Of a stretch of DNA of 34,455 bases, positions 2,989-22,966 are shown piece by piece (position 1 is the stretch's first letter; the number at the start of each line of letters is the position of its first letter). This DNA comes from Pseudomonadota bacterium (GTDB taxonomy: Bacteria > Pseudomonadota > Alphaproteobacteria > Rhizobiales > Xanthobacteraceae). Under the pieces are notes generated by a model. The model made no database searches, was not told the origin of the DNA, and saw only the letters and a list, made by a program, of their open reading frames with translations. Position numbers and translations under genes: made by a program. The stretch is from the NCBI GenBank assembly GCA_016195095.1, contig JACQAE010000021.1, forward strand, positions 1 to 34,455. The letters are read 5' to 3'.

Positions 2989-3064
2989 TGGTGAGCCCGC
3001 TGGGACTCGAACCCAGGACCACCTGATTAAAAGTCAGGTGCTCTACCATCTGAGCTACGGGCTC
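2989..3064 (-). tRNA. tRNA-Lys, anticodon TTT
   Basis: The reverse strand folds as a complete 76-nt tRNA. The 7-bp acceptor stem is GAGCCCG/CGGGCTC. The D-arm is TAGCTCAGATGGTAGAGCA. The anticodon stem is CCTGA/TCAGG around the loop CTTTTAA, which gives anticodon TTT. The T-arm contains GGTTCGAGTCC. Discriminator A is followed by an encoded CCA (2989-2991). Anticodon TTT reads AAA and AAG lysine codons. The fold was read by eye, but every arm pairs and the invariant positions are present. Confidence 0.97.
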
Positions 3065-4442: not shown

Positions 4443-7103
4443 CTACTGCGCCGCTTCGGCGCGGCGCTCCACCGGCGCCGGCGCATCGGCAAACTTGGCG
4501 ATGGCGGCGCGGCGGGCGTGAACCTCAGCCGCGCGCGAGCGCAGCGCCTGCCAGAACGCCGGATCGTTGACGCGCGAGCCGTCGAGTAATCCGAACCCCA
4601 CGGCGGCGAGGAATGGTAGGCTCTGCACCGCCAGCACCAGGGCGAAAAGGTTGACCTCGCGCACCTGCTCGTAATTTGTCGCGTAAACGACGATCGCGCC
4701 GATGACCAGCAATGCGCCGAGAACCGCCTCGTGGAAGGCCGGAAACAGCGGTCCCTTGCGCGTGCCGCCGCCCTTGGCCGTGCGCACGAAGGGTAGATGA
4801 TCCTTGAACAGCGTCACGGCAACCGCGCGTGCCACCGCCCATTGCATGGACATGGCGGCGAACATCGCGCCGAGCGTTGCTCCTGGCGCGATGGCGACGC
4901 GGCGGCGATACAGCAGCACGAAATGCGCAATCGAAACAACGAATGTCGCCAGGATCGGCAATGTCAGCACCTTGTCGGGGACCGCGATGCCGACGAAGGC
5001 GACGATCGGCACCCAACCAATGTTGAGGATGGCGACGAGCACGCCGACGCTTTCCGCGCCGAGCCAACTCAGCCAGCCCATAGCGAATTCGCGCTTCTGG
5101 TCGCGCGACAAAGGGCTCGCGCCGGGCAGGAAATTCCGCCAATGCTTCTTGCAGATCTGCAATCCGCCGGCCGCCCAGCGGTGACGCTGTTGCTTGAACG
5201 CCTCGAACGTATCGGGCAACAGGCCATATCCATAGCGGCGGTTGGTGTAGTGCATCTGCCAACCGCGCGTGAGAATGCTCAGGCCGAGATCGGTGTCCTC
5301 GCAGATCGTGTCACTCGACCATCCGCCGGCGGCCTCGAGCGCGGCGCGGCGCACGAGGCACATGGTTCCATGCACGATAATGGCATTGGCCTCATTGCGC
5401 TGGACCATGCCGATATCGAAAAAGCCGGCATATTCCGCGTTCATCGCGCCATGCATGGGACTGCGGCCGGCGTCGCGATGATCCTGCTGCGCCTGGATCA
5501 AGCCAGTCCGCGGATCGGCGAAATATGGCACCAGGTCCTTGAGCCAGCCAGGTTCGGTCGCGTAGTCGGCGTCGAGGACGCCGATGATATCCGCGTCGGG
5601 CGCGCTATGCGCCAACGCCAGACGCAACGCGCCCGCCTTGTAGCCTTCGACATGCTGCGCATTGACGAATTTGAAGCGCTCGCCAAGCAGCCGGCAATGG
5701 TCCTCGATCGGCCGCCACAGGGCCGGGTCGGACGTGTTGTTGATGACGACGACGCATTCGAAATTGGGGTAGTCAAGACGCGAAACGGAATCGAGCGTCG
5801 CCTTGAGCATGTCCGGCGGTTCCCGATGCGCGGGGATGTGGATCGACACCTTGGGTGCGTAGCCGCTCGCGGGCAGCGCTTCGGATAACAGCAGGCGGCG
5901 TGGAGCGCGGCCAAAGATGATCGCGGCAATTTCATCGACTCTACTCAATGCGATGAGCAGCAGCGGAACCAACAGGAGCATGCCGAGCGCCAGCGCGAAC
6001 GCGGCGCCGGGCACGAAGTAGTGCCCGTTCCAATAGGCAAAGACGGTCGCGCCCCAGGCCCCGACCGCGTGCGCGCAGAGCGCGAGAATGACCGCCTGCG
6101 GGAACGTCGCGCCGGCGATGGTGAGCATGGGCAGCGAGAGCAGGCACCCAAGCAACACCGCGATCGCGGCGAGTTTCCAATGGTCGGCGTTGGCGAGCGG
6201 TCCCGACCAGGCGAATTTCGCCTGCCGCTGCGTGTTGAACAGGCCCCAATATGGCCCGACGCTGCCTTCGAAGGTCTTCCACGGCTGATCGAATGCCTCG
6301 ATGATATTGTAGTCGATGCCGAGCGCGTCGGCGCGTTGCGCGAATGTGCGCAGGACCTGCGCCTGCTCGATCCGTCCCGGCATCGCCGCCTGCCGGTTGT
6401 AGCCGGCGCTCGGCCAGCCGAATTCGGCAATGACGATCTTCTTGCCCGGATAGGCGTCGCGTAGTTTGCGATAGATGAGAATCGCCTGGTCGACGGCGCC
6501 GCTTGCGGGGAATCCCTCCCAATAGGGGAGAATATGGGCGGCGATGAAATCGACCGCGGATACAAGTTCGGGATGCTTGATCCATTCATGCCAGATTTCG
6601 CCGGTCGTCACCGCAACCGCGCCATTGGTTTCGCGCTTGACCTGATGGATCAGCTTGATCAGCTCGGGGACGCTTTTTTCGCCGCGGAAGATTGTCTCGT
6701 TGCCGACGACAATGGCGTTGATGTTGTGACTGCGTCGCGCAAGTTCGACGACCTTGGCGATCTCGCTTCTATTGCGGTTCTCGTTGCGGTCGATCCACGC
6801 GCCAATGGCGACGCGCAATCCGAATTCGGCGGCGATTTCCGGGACGATTTCGCTCCCGCCTGTCGATGAATAGGTGCGCACCGCGCGTGTATAGGCGGAG
6901 ATCGCCTTGAGATCGGCGCGCACCTGCGCGGCGCTCGGCCGAAAGCCGGCCTGGTCCGGGTGCGCCACGCCCTCGAAGGGCGTGTACGATACGCTCGGCA
7001 ATAGGCCATCGAATTCGACGGCAGGTGTGTGGCTTTGAGTGATGGCCCATAGGCCAGCATGCACGCACGCAACGAGCGCGACGGCGGCGGCGACGAAGCG
7101 CAT
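4443..7103 (-). CDS. ndvB: NdvB-type beta-(1,3)-glucan synthase, GH17 domain fused to a GT2 glycosyltransferase
   Basis: The 886-residue membrane protein is predicted to polymerise glucose from UDP-glucose and remodel the product into periplasmic beta-glucan. One N-terminal anchor (about residues 2-20) precedes a periplasmic GH17 domain (about 35-300). Its acid/base Glu is in VVGNETIFRGE (about E136) and its nucleophile in IAEFGWPSAG (about E227). Several membrane helices follow (about 310-395), then a cytoplasmic GT2 domain (about 415-645) with VLDADYA (DxD at about 511-513), CEDTD (about 601-605) and QQRHRW (about 638-643), and finally more helices. This order matches the Pseudomonas aeruginosa NdvB type, whose GH17 domain acts as a beta-glucosyltransferase, not the very large cyclic beta-1,2-glucan NdvB. 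A TTG at 7118 could extend it by five residues; I prefer ATG 7103. It lies downstream of a small secreted protein gene on the same strand. Confidence 0.88.
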   Translation of the reverse strand: MRFVAAAVALVACVHAGLWAITQSHTPAVEFDGLLPSVSYTPFEGVAHPDQAGFRPSAAQVRADLKAISAYTRAVRTYSSTGGSEIVPEIAAEFGLRVAIGAWIDRNENRNRSEIAKVVELARRSHNINAIVVGNETIFRGEKSVPELIKLIHQVKRETNGAVAVTTGEIWHEWIKHPELVSAVDFIAAHILPYWEGFPASGAVDQAILIYRKLRDAYPGKKIVIAEFGWPSAGYNRQAAMPGRIEQAQVLRTFAQRADALGIDYNIIEAFDQPWKTFEGSVGPYWGLFNTQRQAKFAWSGPLANADHWKLAAIAVLLGCLLSLPMLTIAGATFPQAVILALCAHAVGAWGATVFAYWNGHYFVPGAAFALALGMLLLVPLLLIALSRVDEIAAIIFGRAPRRLLLSEALPASGYAPKVSIHIPAHREPPDMLKATLDSVSRLDYPNFECVVVINNTSDPALWRPIEDHCRLLGERFKFVNAQHVEGYKAGALRLALAHSAPDADIIGVLDADYATEPGWLKDLVPYFADPRTGLIQAQQDHRDAGRSPMHGAMNAEYAGFFDIGMVQRNEANAIIVHGTMCLVRRAALEAAGGWSSDTICEDTDLGLSILTRGWQMHYTNRRYGYGLLPDTFEAFKQQRHRWAAGGLQICKKHWRNFLPGASPLSRDQKREFAMGWLSWLGAESVGVLVAILNIGWVPIVAFVGIAVPDKVLTLPILATFVVSIAHFVLLYRRRVAIAPGATLGAMFAAMSMQWAVARAVAVTLFKDHLPFVRTAKGGGTRKGPLFPAFHEAVLGALLVIGAIVVYATNYEQVREVNLFALVLAVQSLPFLAAVGFGLLDGSRVNDPAFWQALRSRAAEVHARRAAIAKFADAPAPVERRAEAAQ

Positions 7104-7183
7104 GGAAGTCGGTACCAAACGGGGCGGGGTAGCGGTGGCCCGAGCCTGTCCCCTAGGCTCGATCCGGGCATTGACCGATAGAG

Positions 7184-7213
7184 AGCATATCCCGGTTGGT
7201 GGCGAGCGATCAA
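7184..7213 (-). promoter_or_regulatory. Candidate promoter of the ndvB-like gene
   Basis: On the reverse strand, TTGATC (7208-7213) is followed after 18 bases by TATGCT (7184-7189). It sits in the 208-base gap before ndvB and would give a leader of about 70 bases. It would let ndvB be transcribed separately from the small secreted protein gene upstream. The match is moderate and was read by eye. Confidence 0.35.
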
Positions 7214-7311
7214 TTAGGAATGTCGCATGGCGTTTTGAAGGCGCGCCGACCGCGCGCCGCGAAATATATTTTTTTCACACGGCGCCGCGGATCACGCGCG
7301 GCCGTGGGCCC

Positions 7312-7815
7312 TCAGCGTTTCGCCGGCGCTGCGGACGCTGGCGGCGGCGGCGCCGCCGCGGCAGCCTCGGTGGGCGCCGCAGAAGTTGGCTCGAGGGCCG
7401 GGTTGATCCAGCAGGCCTGAACGCGATTATTTAATGAATCCGGTGCTTTAGGGTCAATATCCCCATGCCTGACGAGGCAGCGGAACGTCGCCTGGATATG
7501 GCCGCCAGGGCAACCAAAGCGGTCATAGAGGTCAAGATGGCGAAAGGCGGTATCGAGATCGTCGCGCCACATCAGGCCGACGATGCGGCGTCCAAGCCAG
7601 ACGCATTCGGGATTAGCCGCTGGCCCAACCAGGGACTTGGCAACCTCGGCGATTTCGTCGATGCGCCGGCGCGTTGGCCCAGCGCGGTCGCCCTGCTGCG
7701 CCGGGGCGGCCGCGGCGGGTGGGCGTTCGCCACTTTGCGCTCCCGCCGGTCCTGGCATCAGCAGCAGGGTAGTGGCAAAGCAGGCTGCGACAATCTGTAT
7801 CACGAACGAGGACAT
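7312..7815 (-). CDS. Small secreted protein of the beta-glucan locus
   Basis: The 167-residue protein has a Sec signal peptide (hydrophobic core FVIQIVAACFATTLLLMPG, likely cut after AGA near residue 26). A low-complexity Pro/Ala segment and a mature core of about 85 residues follow, and then a disordered Ala/Pro tail. The core has four cysteines (PECVWLGRR, DRFGCPGGH, FRCLVRHGD, VQACWINPA), consistent with two periplasmic disulfides. I recall proteins with this core in Bradyrhizobium and Rhodopseudomonas beside ndv genes, labelled beta-1,3/beta-1,6-glucan biosynthesis protein; no activity is known to me. It lies between the ndvB-like gene (same strand, downstream) and the ndvC-like gene (divergent). 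A periplasmic helper role in glucan synthesis is inferred from position only. Confidence 0.8.
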   Translation of the reverse strand: MSSFVIQIVAACFATTLLLMPGPAGAQSGERPPAAAAPAQQGDRAGPTRRRIDEIAEVAKSLVGPAANPECVWLGRRIVGLMWRDDLDTAFRHLDLYDRFGCPGGHIQATFRCLVRHGDIDPKAPDSLNNRVQACWINPALEPTSAAPTEAAAAAPPPPASAAPAKR

Positions 7816-8025
7816 GTCGGCTCGCGGCGGTTGGCGGCTTGCGCCGTTCGGGTTACGTCTCGCGGCAAGGATACGTCACGGGTAAGGCAACGCCCCAGGT
7901 CGGGCTCCAGATTGCCGAACGTGACCGGTTTGTCCAGCGTCGTGCGTGCGCCGGGCGGCGAGGGGCGACTTGGCACCGATCGACGTAATCGTTAAGCGGC
8001 GTTGTGGGCAAAATCGAAACGACCA

Positions 8026-9729
8026 ATGAAACGCTTTCCGTTGGGATTGTTCCTGTGTTGCGCGACCGCGGTCGTGCTGGCGTGGTTCTGGCTTGGCCGT
8101 CCGGTGGCGATGCCGCCGCCGCCGCTGCCGGCGCACGCGCGGTTGTACTGCATTTCCTATGCCCCCTTTCGCGCCGAGCAAAATCCGCTGGTGGCAGGAA
8201 CCTATATCGAACAGTGGCAAATCGACGAGGATCTGGCGCGCCTGAAGACGCTTAGCCGCTGTGTGCGGACCTACTCGGTCGAGCACGGGCTTGACCAGAT
8301 CGCGCCTTTGGCGCGCCGGCACGGAATCAAGGTCCTGCAAGGACTTTGGCTCAGCAGCAACGCCGAAAAGAACCGGGTGCAGATCGACACCGTGATCCGG
8401 TTGGCGAACGACTACGCCGACGTGATCGAGGGTGTGGTAGTCGGCAACGAGGTTCTGCTGCGCGGCGAATTATCCGCCAAGGCGCTGGGGGAGATCATTG
8501 CGCAAGTCAAGGCCGCCGTACCGGTGCCGGTAACCTATGCCGACGTGTGGGAGTTTTGGCTTCGCAATAGCGAGCTTGCCGCGCTGGTGGATTTCGTGAC
8601 CGTTCACATCCTGCCCTATTGGGAGGATGACCCGGTGCCGGCCGCCGCGGCGGCCGGCCATGTCGATGCGATCCGGCGCCTTGTGGCCGCGCGTTTCCCC
8701 GACAAGGACATTCTCATCGGCGAGGTCGGTTGGCCGAGCGCCGGGCGCATGCGCGCGGGCGCGCTGCCCTCGCCGTCGCAACAGGCATTGGTGCTGCATC
8801 ACGTGCTCGCGGCGGCGGGGCGCGGCAACTACCACGTCAACATCATCGAGGCCTTCGACCAGCCGTGGAAGCGGCGGCTCGAAGGCAGCGTGGGCGGCCA
8901 TTGGGGCCTTTTTGCCACGCAGTCGGCCGCGCCGAAATTTCATTGGGGTACTGCGCTCTCCGACCATCCGAGCTGGCGCTGGCAGGCGCTGGTCGGGACA
9001 TTGATCGCGGCGGCGATCTTCGTCGTGGCCTGGTTCGCCCGCGCGCGCGGGACGGGTGAGCGGGGATATTTCATGGCTTGGTCGGGTGTTGCGGTTGCCG
9101 CCACGGCAGCGGGCGTACTCGCCGGAATCATTGCCGAAAAAGTGGCGATCGAGGGCCTTGGCCTCGGTGGCTGGGTGCAATCGTTGGCGTGGGCGGCGGT
9201 CGCGGCCGCTGCCGCCATCCTTGCGCCGATCGCGCGCATGCGCGGCGAGGCGATCGCGGGCTTTTCGCAGGTCCTTGGGCGTTCACGTGTGCTTGGGCGT
9301 TCACCACCACCGGCGCGCGCCGGCGCGCGGTTGGGCATCCCCTTGCCGGTCGCATTGGGGCTCGTCCTTGTCGCGCTGACCGTCCTTGCCCTGGCGAGCG
9401 CGCTGGCGCTGATATTCGATCCGCGCTATCGCGATTTTCCCTACGCGCCGTTGACGCTCGCGGTGGCCAGCCTTTTGCCGTTCGCGCCGCGGCAAATACC
9501 GTTTCGCCGGCCGACTGGCGCGGGGGCGGGCGAGAGCGAGAGCGAGGCCAATGCACGGCAGCCTTGGCGCCGCAACGGCACGCAAAGCCTGTGCGCCGTC
9601 ATATTGACCATGGCCTCGGCTTTCATCGTGTGGAACGAGACGATCGCCAATTGGCAGGCGCTGTGGTTTGCCGGTGCCAACGTCGTGCTCGCGATTATTC
9701 TGCTGGCGCGCGCGGACGCGCGAAACTGA
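8026..9729 (+). CDS. ndvC: NdvC-type GH17 beta-glucan glucosyltransferase with C-terminal membrane domain
   Basis: The 567-residue protein has one N-terminal signal-anchor helix (about residues 4-22) and a periplasmic GH17 domain (about 40-310). About seven hydrophobic helices follow to the C-terminus, with no GT2 domain. The GH17 acid/base Glu is in VVGNEVLLRGE (about E142) and the nucleophile in IGEVGWPSAG (about E233). The domain end IIEAFDQPWK...GSVGGHWGLF parallels the same segment of the neighbouring NdvB-like protein. In Bradyrhizobium, NdvC is tied to the beta-1,6 linkages or branches of cyclic beta-(1,3)(1,6)-glucan, needed for osmotic adaptation and symbiosis; that role is transferred by family. 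ATG 8026 is chosen over an in-frame TTG at 8002. The gene is divergent from the small secreted protein gene across a 210-base gap, and its last 35 bases overlap the convergent gene at 9695. Confidence 0.85.
   Translation: MKRFPLGLFLCCATAVVLAWFWLGRPVAMPPPPLPAHARLYCISYAPFRAEQNPLVAGTYIEQWQIDEDLARLKTLSRCVRTYSVEHGLDQIAPLARRHGIKVLQGLWLSSNAEKNRVQIDTVIRLANDYADVIEGVVVGNEVLLRGELSAKALGEIIAQVKAAVPVPVTYADVWEFWLRNSELAALVDFVTVHILPYWEDDPVPAAAAAGHVDAIRRLVAARFPDKDILIGEVGWPSAGRMRAGALPSPSQQALVLHHVLAAAGRGNYHVNIIEAFDQPWKRRLEGSVGGHWGLFATQSAAPKFHWGTALSDHPSWRWQALVGTLIAAAIFVVAWFARARGTGERGYFMAWSGVAVAATAAGVLAGIIAEKVAIEGLGLGGWVQSLAWAAVAAAAAILAPIARMRGEAIAGFSQVLGRSRVLGRSPPPARAGARLGIPLPVALGLVLVALTVLALASALALIFDPRYRDFPYAPLTLAVASLLPFAPRQIPFRRPTGAGAGESESEANARQPWRRNGTQSLCAVILTMASAFIVWNETIANWQALWFAGANVVLAIILLARADARN
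9274..9304 (+). repeat. Short tandem duplication inside ndvC
   Basis: The 13-base unit CTTGGGCGTTCAC occurs twice with a period of 18 bases, keeping frame and giving VLGRSR followed by VLGRSP in a cytoplasmic or periplasmic loop between membrane helices. It looks like a recent in-frame slippage duplication with no clear functional meaning. Confidence 0.75.
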
Positions 9730-10069
9730 CAACCAAAAGGGCGACGGCAAGCGCGGAAAGCGCGGTATTGTAAAGCACAATACCGAGCCCCGCCGCCGCC
9801 AGGGAAACGGCGAAATAGGCCAATGATGGCCGTATCAGATTGAGAATGGCGCCACCCAGCGCCACCATGCCGAAAAGCTGGAGGTTGAAGAAGCGCGTCA
9901 CCACGCGCCGCGACAGGCACGTCCAGGTCTCGCCCCCTGTGTCGCACGCAATGCCAACGGCGGACTGCTCGATAATCCGGTAGCGCATATGAAAAGCGTA
10001 AGCGAGCGAGCCTATGGCGATCAGCGCGAGCAGGCTGGCGGGTGCGAAGCGCAAGGCGCGAACGCGCAT
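9695..10069 (-). CDS. Small four-helix membrane protein of unknown function
   Basis: The 124-residue protein has about four hydrophobic segments: around residues 8-25, 58-78, 82-102 and 102-118. A loop between the first two holds two cysteines (IACDTGGETWTCLSRR), which could form a periplasmic disulfide. The start is supported by GAGGA five bases before ATG 10069. I do not recognise a named family. It is likely real because it has a good ribosome-binding site and coherent topology. Its 3' end overlaps the end of ndvC by 35 bases on the other strand. It lies 111 bases downstream of the SPOR-like protein gene on the same strand and may be cotranscribed with it. A link to glucan production is possible by position but not shown. 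Confidence 0.72.
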   Translation of the reverse strand: MRVRALRFAPASLLALIAIGSLAYAFHMRYRIIEQSAVGIACDTGGETWTCLSRRVVTRFFNLQLFGMVALGGAILNLIRPSLAYFAVSLAAAGLGIVLYNTALSALAVALLVVSFARPRAPAE

Positions 10070-22276: not shown

Positions 22277-22966
22277 CTAGATTGGCGCGATCGCCGACGC
22301 GCCGGCGCCGCTACCGGCAAGCTCGGTAGCGGCGCGGCTGATCGCGTCGGCGAGATATTCCGGTGCCTGGGCGCCCGATACGGCGAAGGCGCCGCCGAAG
22401 ATGAAGCAGGGCACGCCGTCGATGCCGGCGTCAGTGGCCGATTTCGCCTCGCGCGTGACGCGATCGATATCGTGGTCGGACGCCAAGAGCGTGGCGACCT
22501 GCGCCGCGTCCAGGCCGCAATCGGCGGCGGCCTGCACCAGCACCTGGCGGTCGGACAGGTCGGCGCCCTCGCTGAAATAGACATCCATCAGCCGCTGCTT
22601 CATCTCGCCGGCCGCGCCGATGGCGTCGGCCCAGGCGATGAGGCGATGGCAGTCGATCGTGTTGGGCTGGCGCGACATTTTCTCGACCGCGTAGACGAGC
22701 CCGTCCGCCTCGGCGGCCATCGCCACGCGCCGCGCGATGCCGTCATACTTTGCGACCGAGCCGAATTTTTTCGTCAGGTAATCGGCGCGGCTCATGCCTT
22801 CGCGTGGCACCCAAGGATTGAGAAAATACGGCCGCCAATGGGTGACAATCGGAATATCGGGACGGAGTGCGGCGGCCTTTTCGAGCCGGCGCTTGCCGAT
22901 GAAACACCAGGGACAAACGACGTCGGAAATGACGACAACGGGCAGCGGCGTGGCAGACGCAGGCAT
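22277..22966 (-). CDS. DsbA-family thiol oxidoreductase, FrnE type
   Basis: The 229-residue protein has a thioredoxin-like fold with the active site CPWC (residues 18-21 in ISDVVCPWCFIGKRRLEKA) followed by the long helical insertion typical of FrnE/2-hydroxychromene-2-carboxylate isomerase-like proteins. The C-terminal strand has the cis-Pro segment GIDGVPCFIFGGAFAVSGAQ. No signal peptide is visible, so it probably acts in the cytoplasm as a disulfide oxidoreductase or isomerase; the physiological substrate is unknown. AAGGAG upstream of ATG 22966 supports the start. It stands alone, convergent with mfd. Confidence 0.9.
   Translation of the reverse strand: MPASATPLPVVVISDVVCPWCFIGKRRLEKAAALRPDIPIVTHWRPYFLNPWVPREGMSRADYLTKKFGSVAKYDGIARRVAMAAEADGLVYAVEKMSRQPNTIDCHRLIAWADAIGAAGEMKQRLMDVYFSEGADLSDRQVLVQAAADCGLDAAQVATLLASDHDIDRVTREAKSATDAGIDGVPCFIFGGAFAVSGAQAPEYLADAISRAATELAGSGAGASAIAPI

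Follow-up and report, generated by a model that had tools for sequence, protein, structure and literature searches.

The closest described counterpart of the locus analyzed here is the ndvB-ndvD-ndvC set of Bradyrhizobium japonicum and B. diazoefficiens, in which the same three genes occur with ndvD in the middle. The ndvD mutant studied by Chen in 2002 reportedly contains no glucan in vivo, yet its membranes are said to synthesise glucan in vitro; the mutant is also reported to be osmosensitive and symbiotically ineffective, and NdvD is reported to have a mass of 26.4 kDa. In two later genome papers, blr4614, blr4613 and blr4612 of strain USDA 110 are named ndvB, ndvD and ndvC, respectively (PMC3927601), and the order ndvBDC is given for four genomes, with NdvD listed as a conserved hypothetical protein possibly involved in glucan transport, citing Chen 2002 (PMC4070871). 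NdvC has elsewhere been hypothesised to be a beta-1,6-glucan synthase (PMC10514313). The NdvB of Pseudomonas ('Orphan') is a GH17-GT2 fusion too, for which beta-1,3-glucan synthesis and cyclisation have been proposed (PMC10237404). For Glt20, a GH17 enzyme of B. diazoefficiens, reducing-end cleavage and beta-1,6 products have been described (PMC11005184). Both Glt20 and RmBgt17A, the enzyme of structure 4wtp, are GH17 transglycosylases, and the GH17 domains of the locus described below match 4wtp. Glt20 is reportedly the GH17 domain of NdvB (Dobruchowska 2016).

The window, that is, the whole stretch of 34,455 nucleotides that was analyzed, comes from a genome assembly of 3.8 Mb in 307 contigs and carries the following genes.

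2992-3064, minus strand: tRNA gene (Rfam RF00005)
4443..7103, minus strand: ndvB, beta-glucan synthase, with GH17 at about residues 30-300, membrane helices, GT2 at residues 417-645 and again membrane helices
7312..7815, minus strand: ndvD, encoding a small four-cysteine protein, secreted or anchored in the membrane, with a helical core at residues 45-137
8026..9729, plus strand: ndvC, GH17 with a C-terminal membrane domain and without a GT, divergent from ndvD-ndvB
9695-10069, minus strand: ORF for a small, membrane-protein-like product of 124 aa, convergent with ndvC, without a Pfam match at E 1e-5

ORF calling confirmed the reading frames 4443-7118 and 7312-7815 on the minus strand and 8002-9729 on the plus strand, with ATG 7103 and ATG 8026 as the likelier starts of the synthase and the GH17 membrane protein, respectively; ndvD lies directly upstream of ndvB on the same strand, with a gap of 208 bp here. 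In the synthase, the GT2 domain was recognized by PF13641 (E 1.6e-26, residues 417-645), and the comparison with solved structures returned the GH17 beta-1,3-glucanosyltransferase 4wtp (E 1e-27) as well as BcsA (about 1e-20). The NdvC-like protein also matched the GH17 structure 4wtp (E 4.8e-19), belongs to no GT family and has six hydrophobic stretches behind its GH17 part. ORFs, Pfam and structure matches thus bear out an earlier note on this DNA, which had described a GH17-GT2 gene and a GH17 membrane gene without a GT flanking a small secreted four-cysteine protein. Because the Pfam GH17 family (PF00332) scored below its curated cut-off in both proteins (23.6 and 22 versus 28.2 bits), the GH17 assignment rests on the matches to solved GH17 enzymes.

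The window NdvB is 58-67% identical to the NdvB proteins of the sister loci, and both Glu motifs are kept there in 76/76 NdvB and 78/78 NdvC; L103 and L106 fell outside the acid/base search pattern, yet read FIVGNE. In the NdvC-like protein, the nucleophile Glu falls on the 4wtp nucleophile in the alignment, a position at which the sequences of 4wtr and 4wts have Ala, and E142 and E233 are invariant among 24 aligned NdvC. A strict motif pattern applied to 45 other NdvB missed many acid/base or nucleophile sites and was probably too narrow. The catalytic Glu pair that the same note had read as intact in both GH17 domains is also conserved in the sister loci. Since the window NdvC has a GH17 domain and no GT, it is likelier, judging by its domains, to be a transglycosylase than a beta-1,6-glucan synthase.

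Only two GH17 matches were found in the window's genome, both within the ndv locus, and neither OpgG nor GH94 had a match anywhere in that genome. The proposed identity as a beta-(1,3)/(1,6)-glucan locus of the ndvB/ndvC type agrees with the domains, the catalytic Glu residues and the B. japonicum-like gene order, and we regard the locus as almost certainly a Bradyrhizobium-type ndvB-ndvD-ndvC set for cyclic beta-(1,3)(1,6)-glucan, an osmoregulated periplasmic glucan. It is an ordinary locus of an already known kind, and the leader RNA before ndvB is its new part, the one that merits attention.

The small protein had been thought to be undescribed, which proved wrong. The locus of B. japonicum in8p8 (L135) has the same gene order and orientation as the window, and its small protein is 58% identical to the window's, with 196 residues versus 167 when both are counted from the likeliest starts. 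The L135 protein has a mass of 20.4 kDa from the likeliest start and 24.5 kDa from an upstream ATG, both below the 26.4 kDa that NdvD is said to have. Given this homologue, the shared gene order and the published ndvB-ndvD-ndvC naming, the small protein is, by gene position and homology to L135, NdvD, which goes back to work on B. japonicum in 2002 and appears in later genome papers (PMC3927601, PMC4070871). The USDA 110 genes are all printed as 'blr' in PMC3927601, whereas ndvC is divergent in both the window and L135.

The N-terminus of NdvD is hydrophobic and carries a conserved, processing-like A-Q site; past this site lie four cysteines, and a fifth is inside the signal peptide. Across 49 aligned NdvD sequences, the window's included, C71, C102, C113, C135 and W136 do not vary, and two disulfides are likely in the exported protein. 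Structure modelling with an alignment of 49 sequences gave a confident helical core (pLDDT of at least 90 for 70 residues) with helices at 45-61, 69-83, 87-99, 104-117 and 125-137, and loose Ala/Pro-rich ends. NdvD belongs to no family in Pfam or NCBIfam, and sequence comparison with solved structures yielded no relative (two matches, E 0.5 and 0.9). With the model, Foldseek gave a best E of 1.5 and no informative PDB match, and VIA-align a best Z of 4.1 over 53 residues, with unrelated helical proteins. As these sequence and structure matches are too weak, an assignment of NdvD function from family or fold was rejected. Elsewhere in the window, at 22277-22966 on the minus strand, lies a DsbA-like gene (PF01323) for a disulfide-forming enzyme; its relevance to the four-cysteine NdvD is only a thought.

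A search of named genomes found 168 relatives of the small protein, and the best 80 of them were kept for analysis of the neighbourhood. All 80 of these best-matching loci, whose hosts include Bradyrhizobium, Rhodopseudomonas, Nitrobacter, Afipia and Tardiphaga, have NdvD adjoining ndvB and/or ndvC, and 74 have the order NdvC(-) NdvD(+) NdvB(+); the remaining six lack one neighbour at the filter and have a contig edge on that side. The near sample consisted of the window's own genome together with 60 relatives, 61 in all, of which 37 are from the same family and 24 from others. NdvD was detected in 32 of the 37 family genomes, with one weak match (E 0.003) among the 24 others, and GH17 proteins in 35 of the 37 and none of the 24; two family members are without both. 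GH17 occurs without NdvD in three family genomes: in G015 ndvC is cut at the contig end, in G029 the ndvB match begins at contig base 19, and G032, the sole real exception, has a lone 37% ndvC-like gene with neither an ndvB match nor NdvD. Candidate second copies of NdvD in G016 and G024 (L185 and L186) were rejected, as the matches are weak or vanish and no ndvB or ndvC is nearby. Two separate ndv clusters are present in G011, on contigs C129 and C261, explained either by duplication or by an assembly that mixes two strains.

The class-wide sample comprised 289 genomes, in each of which the best 12 NdvD and the best 4 GH17 candidates were scored. NdvD was found in 5, including the window's own, and GH17 in 57; all 5 are within the 57 (Fisher p 2.6e-4, with kinship ignored), NdvD being detected in 0 of the 232 sampled genomes without a GH17 match. 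Conversely, NdvD went undetected in 52 of the 57 genomes that have a GH17 match. Four NdvD-bearing genomes outside the window's family, belonging to two families, keep the four cysteines and have ndvB directly downstream; in G157, NdvD stands beside ndvB, about 220 kb from the ndvC-like gene. When ORFs of at least 50 aa from 51 loci were searched with a profile for divergent NdvD in NdvD-lacking loci, only the four known ones scored below E 0.4, and the genes upstream of ndvB in NdvD-lacking loci are mixed. NdvD was also absent from the plasmids searched. Thus, NdvD implies ndvB, whereas ndvB together with ndvC does not imply NdvD. The expectation that the small protein always occurs with ndvB/ndvC-type genes held in 80/80 of the best 80 of 168 relatives, with the amendment that the tie is to ndvB and not to ndvC.

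A quick NdvB tree was built from 61 sequences, namely the window's, 15 chosen from sister loci and 45 others, with SH-aLRT as the only support measure. All 20 NdvD-bearing NdvB fall in one clade (support 100), which also holds L188, without detectable NdvD, and L187, cut by a contig end. With L187 counted as NdvD-lacking the tree needs 3 changes, and with L187 uncounted one gain and one loss fit. Since many NdvB/NdvC pairs and L188 are without NdvD, the protein appears dispensable for some such synthases. The spread of NdvD within one NdvB clade shows where its partner should be sought.

The best overall explanation, which we hold to be very probable, is a known glucan locus with NdvB as the polymerase, NdvC as a second GH17 enzyme and NdvD as a periplasmic helper of NdvB. 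The GT2 domain of NdvB would polymerise beta-1,3-glucan and pass the chain to the periplasm, where the GH17 domain of NdvB would transglycosylate it; NdvC, the second membrane-bound GH17 enzyme, would work on the same chains and may influence the beta-1,6 linkages. NdvD would be exported, remain free or anchored in the periplasm, and fold into a small helical domain that disulfides probably brace; it would aid NdvB in vivo, with binding to the periplasmic or membrane part of NdvB as the most likely mode, an activity inferred for NdvD. Such a three-way division of labour among NdvB, NdvC and NdvD is plausible, if putative, and we give a direct partnership of NdvD with NdvB about an even chance. 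The gene order outside the window's family points to NdvB rather than to NdvC: the middle position of ndvD in the window's family would suit a partner of NdvC, but four genomes of two other families have NdvD at ndvB, and ndvC is distant in G157, which leaves a partnership with NdvC very unlikely. It is also possible, though we doubt it, that NdvD acts on the glucan itself rather than on NdvB, by binding it, handing it on, aiding ring closure or releasing it. The N-terminus exports the protein into the compartment where the product forms, and glucan transport is mentioned in PMC4070871, but no carbohydrate-binding family or fold was found for NdvD, a result to be read with the caveat that weak fold matches exclude nothing.

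The gap between ndvD and ndvB, which spans 173-282 bp across 74 loci with a median of 196.5, contains a conserved element, which in the window is laid out as follows.

7184..7213, minus strand: candidate ndvB promoter ahead of the leader, TTGATC-N18-TATGCT, seen by eye only
7101..7164, minus strand: structured ndvB leader element, model R1 (E 3.5e-12, this copy being part of the model)
7141-7161, minus strand: leader hairpin CGAGCC...GGCTCG with the loop GGGG at 7150-7153
7121-7124, minus strand: leader CCCC, matching the loop GGGG and followed by the conserved GGT at 7114-7116 and then the ATG

Aligned gaps display a hairpin of 6-7 pairs with the loop NGGGGAC, then GCCCC, TGGT and the ATG. 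Of the 75 aligned rows, 67 have an exact GGGG, 62 an exact CCCC and 73 an exact GGT; in 70/75 loci, 34-39 nt separate the end of the stem from the ndvB ATG. Over these 75 rows (70 distinct), 93.9% of the cells pair, and both-side changes occur in 47 cells versus 16.7 in shuffles. The covariation score was 0.246 versus 0.156 for shuffled alignments and was reached by 0/500 shuffles; double changes were present in 5/11 pairs, a less telling measure, reached by 34/500 shuffles. Furthermore, 17 loci new to the model, found by it and aligned without it, served as an out-of-sample test: 94.7% of their cells pair, the score was 0.254 versus 0.146 (0/500 shuffles), and 7/7 hairpin pairs show at least one both-side change that keeps the pairing, with G-U steps present. 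Including one known sequence and altering the alignment slightly gave 6/7 pairs and 93.4% paired. Shuffles lose the relatedness of the sequences, whereas slid controls keep it, and the latter stayed below 67% paired. The ndvB leader hairpin is a covarying helix conserved between species.

The GGGG loop and the downstream CCCC may form a pseudoknot. GGGG:CCCC was paired in 95.3% of the cells of the 70 distinct rows, with one both-side change, and was invariant in 17/17 further loci; as these pairs hardly vary, they provide no test of the pseudoknot. In an alternative, nested fold returned by RNAalifold, the conserved GGTT is paired by the 5' arm and GGGG by CCCC; 96.9% of its cells pair with no covariation, the hairpin alone covarying. 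In the 62 of 75 loci with the pattern (13 without it were left out), median energies were -15.9 kcal/mol for the hairpin, with the pseudoknot uncounted, and -17.5 kcal/mol for the alternative, and the hairpin was lower in energy in 21/62. A two-state leader that frees or hides the start region is conceivable, since the two folds are close in energy and only the hairpin covaries. No usual ribosome-binding sequence was seen by eye before the ndvB ATG.

These features could also belong to DNA, the hairpin before ndvB being an operator or a chance palindrome rather than an RNA structure. Palindromes near promoters often bind regulators, single sequences often favour another fold, and GGGG:CCCC is nearly invariant, so that its pairs are no test of a pseudoknot. 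The compensating changes in 7/7 stem pairs with G-U steps in the 17 new loci, and the loss of pairing when the partners were slid, argue against this reading and make it improbable. Two further explanations were rejected. Measured from GGGG to ATG, the spacing is spread over all three reading frames (35, 19 and 18 of 72 loci), which does not suit a coding explanation; the frame before the ndvB ATG was open in 5/6 loci inspected. A CsrA-type site does not serve as a general reading, because the loop GGA is not kept (variants GGGGTC, GGGGCA and GGGGAA). We cautiously favour an undescribed regulatory leader of the ndvB mRNA in the Bradyrhizobium family, in which a hairpin with GGGG:CCCC pairing would compete with a fold hiding the GGT, making up a translational switch of the glucan synthase that responds to a protein, a sugar signal or osmolarity. 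Should this switch prove real, it would be a new class of leader for alphaproteobacteria, and the control of cyclic glucan synthesis in soybean symbionts and their photosynthetic and nitrifying relatives becomes testable by reporter fusion.

Model R1 matched 24 places at E <=0.002 in 23 of the 61 genomes, all at ndvB. The next match (E 0.005) is not at ndvB, and outside the family the model scores nowhere as well as E 0.01. Among the 33 family genomes in which ndvB was matched, 10 lack an R1 match at E <=0.002; two of these, G020 and G021, have weak ones at ndvB. In a search of 49 loci, including 44 at ndvB in other families, nothing convincing turned up (best E 0.62). The leader had no match in Rfam 15, where a search at E up to 10 gave a single chance match elsewhere in the ndvD-ndvB gap (E 9.8), and no published description was found in the literature searched. 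The SAM-II riboswitch (metA element) is likewise a compact alphaproteobacterial leader with one stem and one pseudoknot (PMC1273637); the ndvB leader differs in being without an Rfam match. A consensus promoter and terminator scan of the leader region found nothing, and a loose promoter pattern fits 25/75 loci.

By eye, a variant hairpin (CGACC, GGGG loop, GGTCG) was observed upstream of ndvB in L026, L027, L029 and L030, where the covariance model missed it; L028 shows none. A second conserved block lies in the ndvD-ndvB gap at 7225-7245 of the window, on the minus strand, reads CCCTCAAAACGCCA in many loci and is perhaps a promoter or operator.
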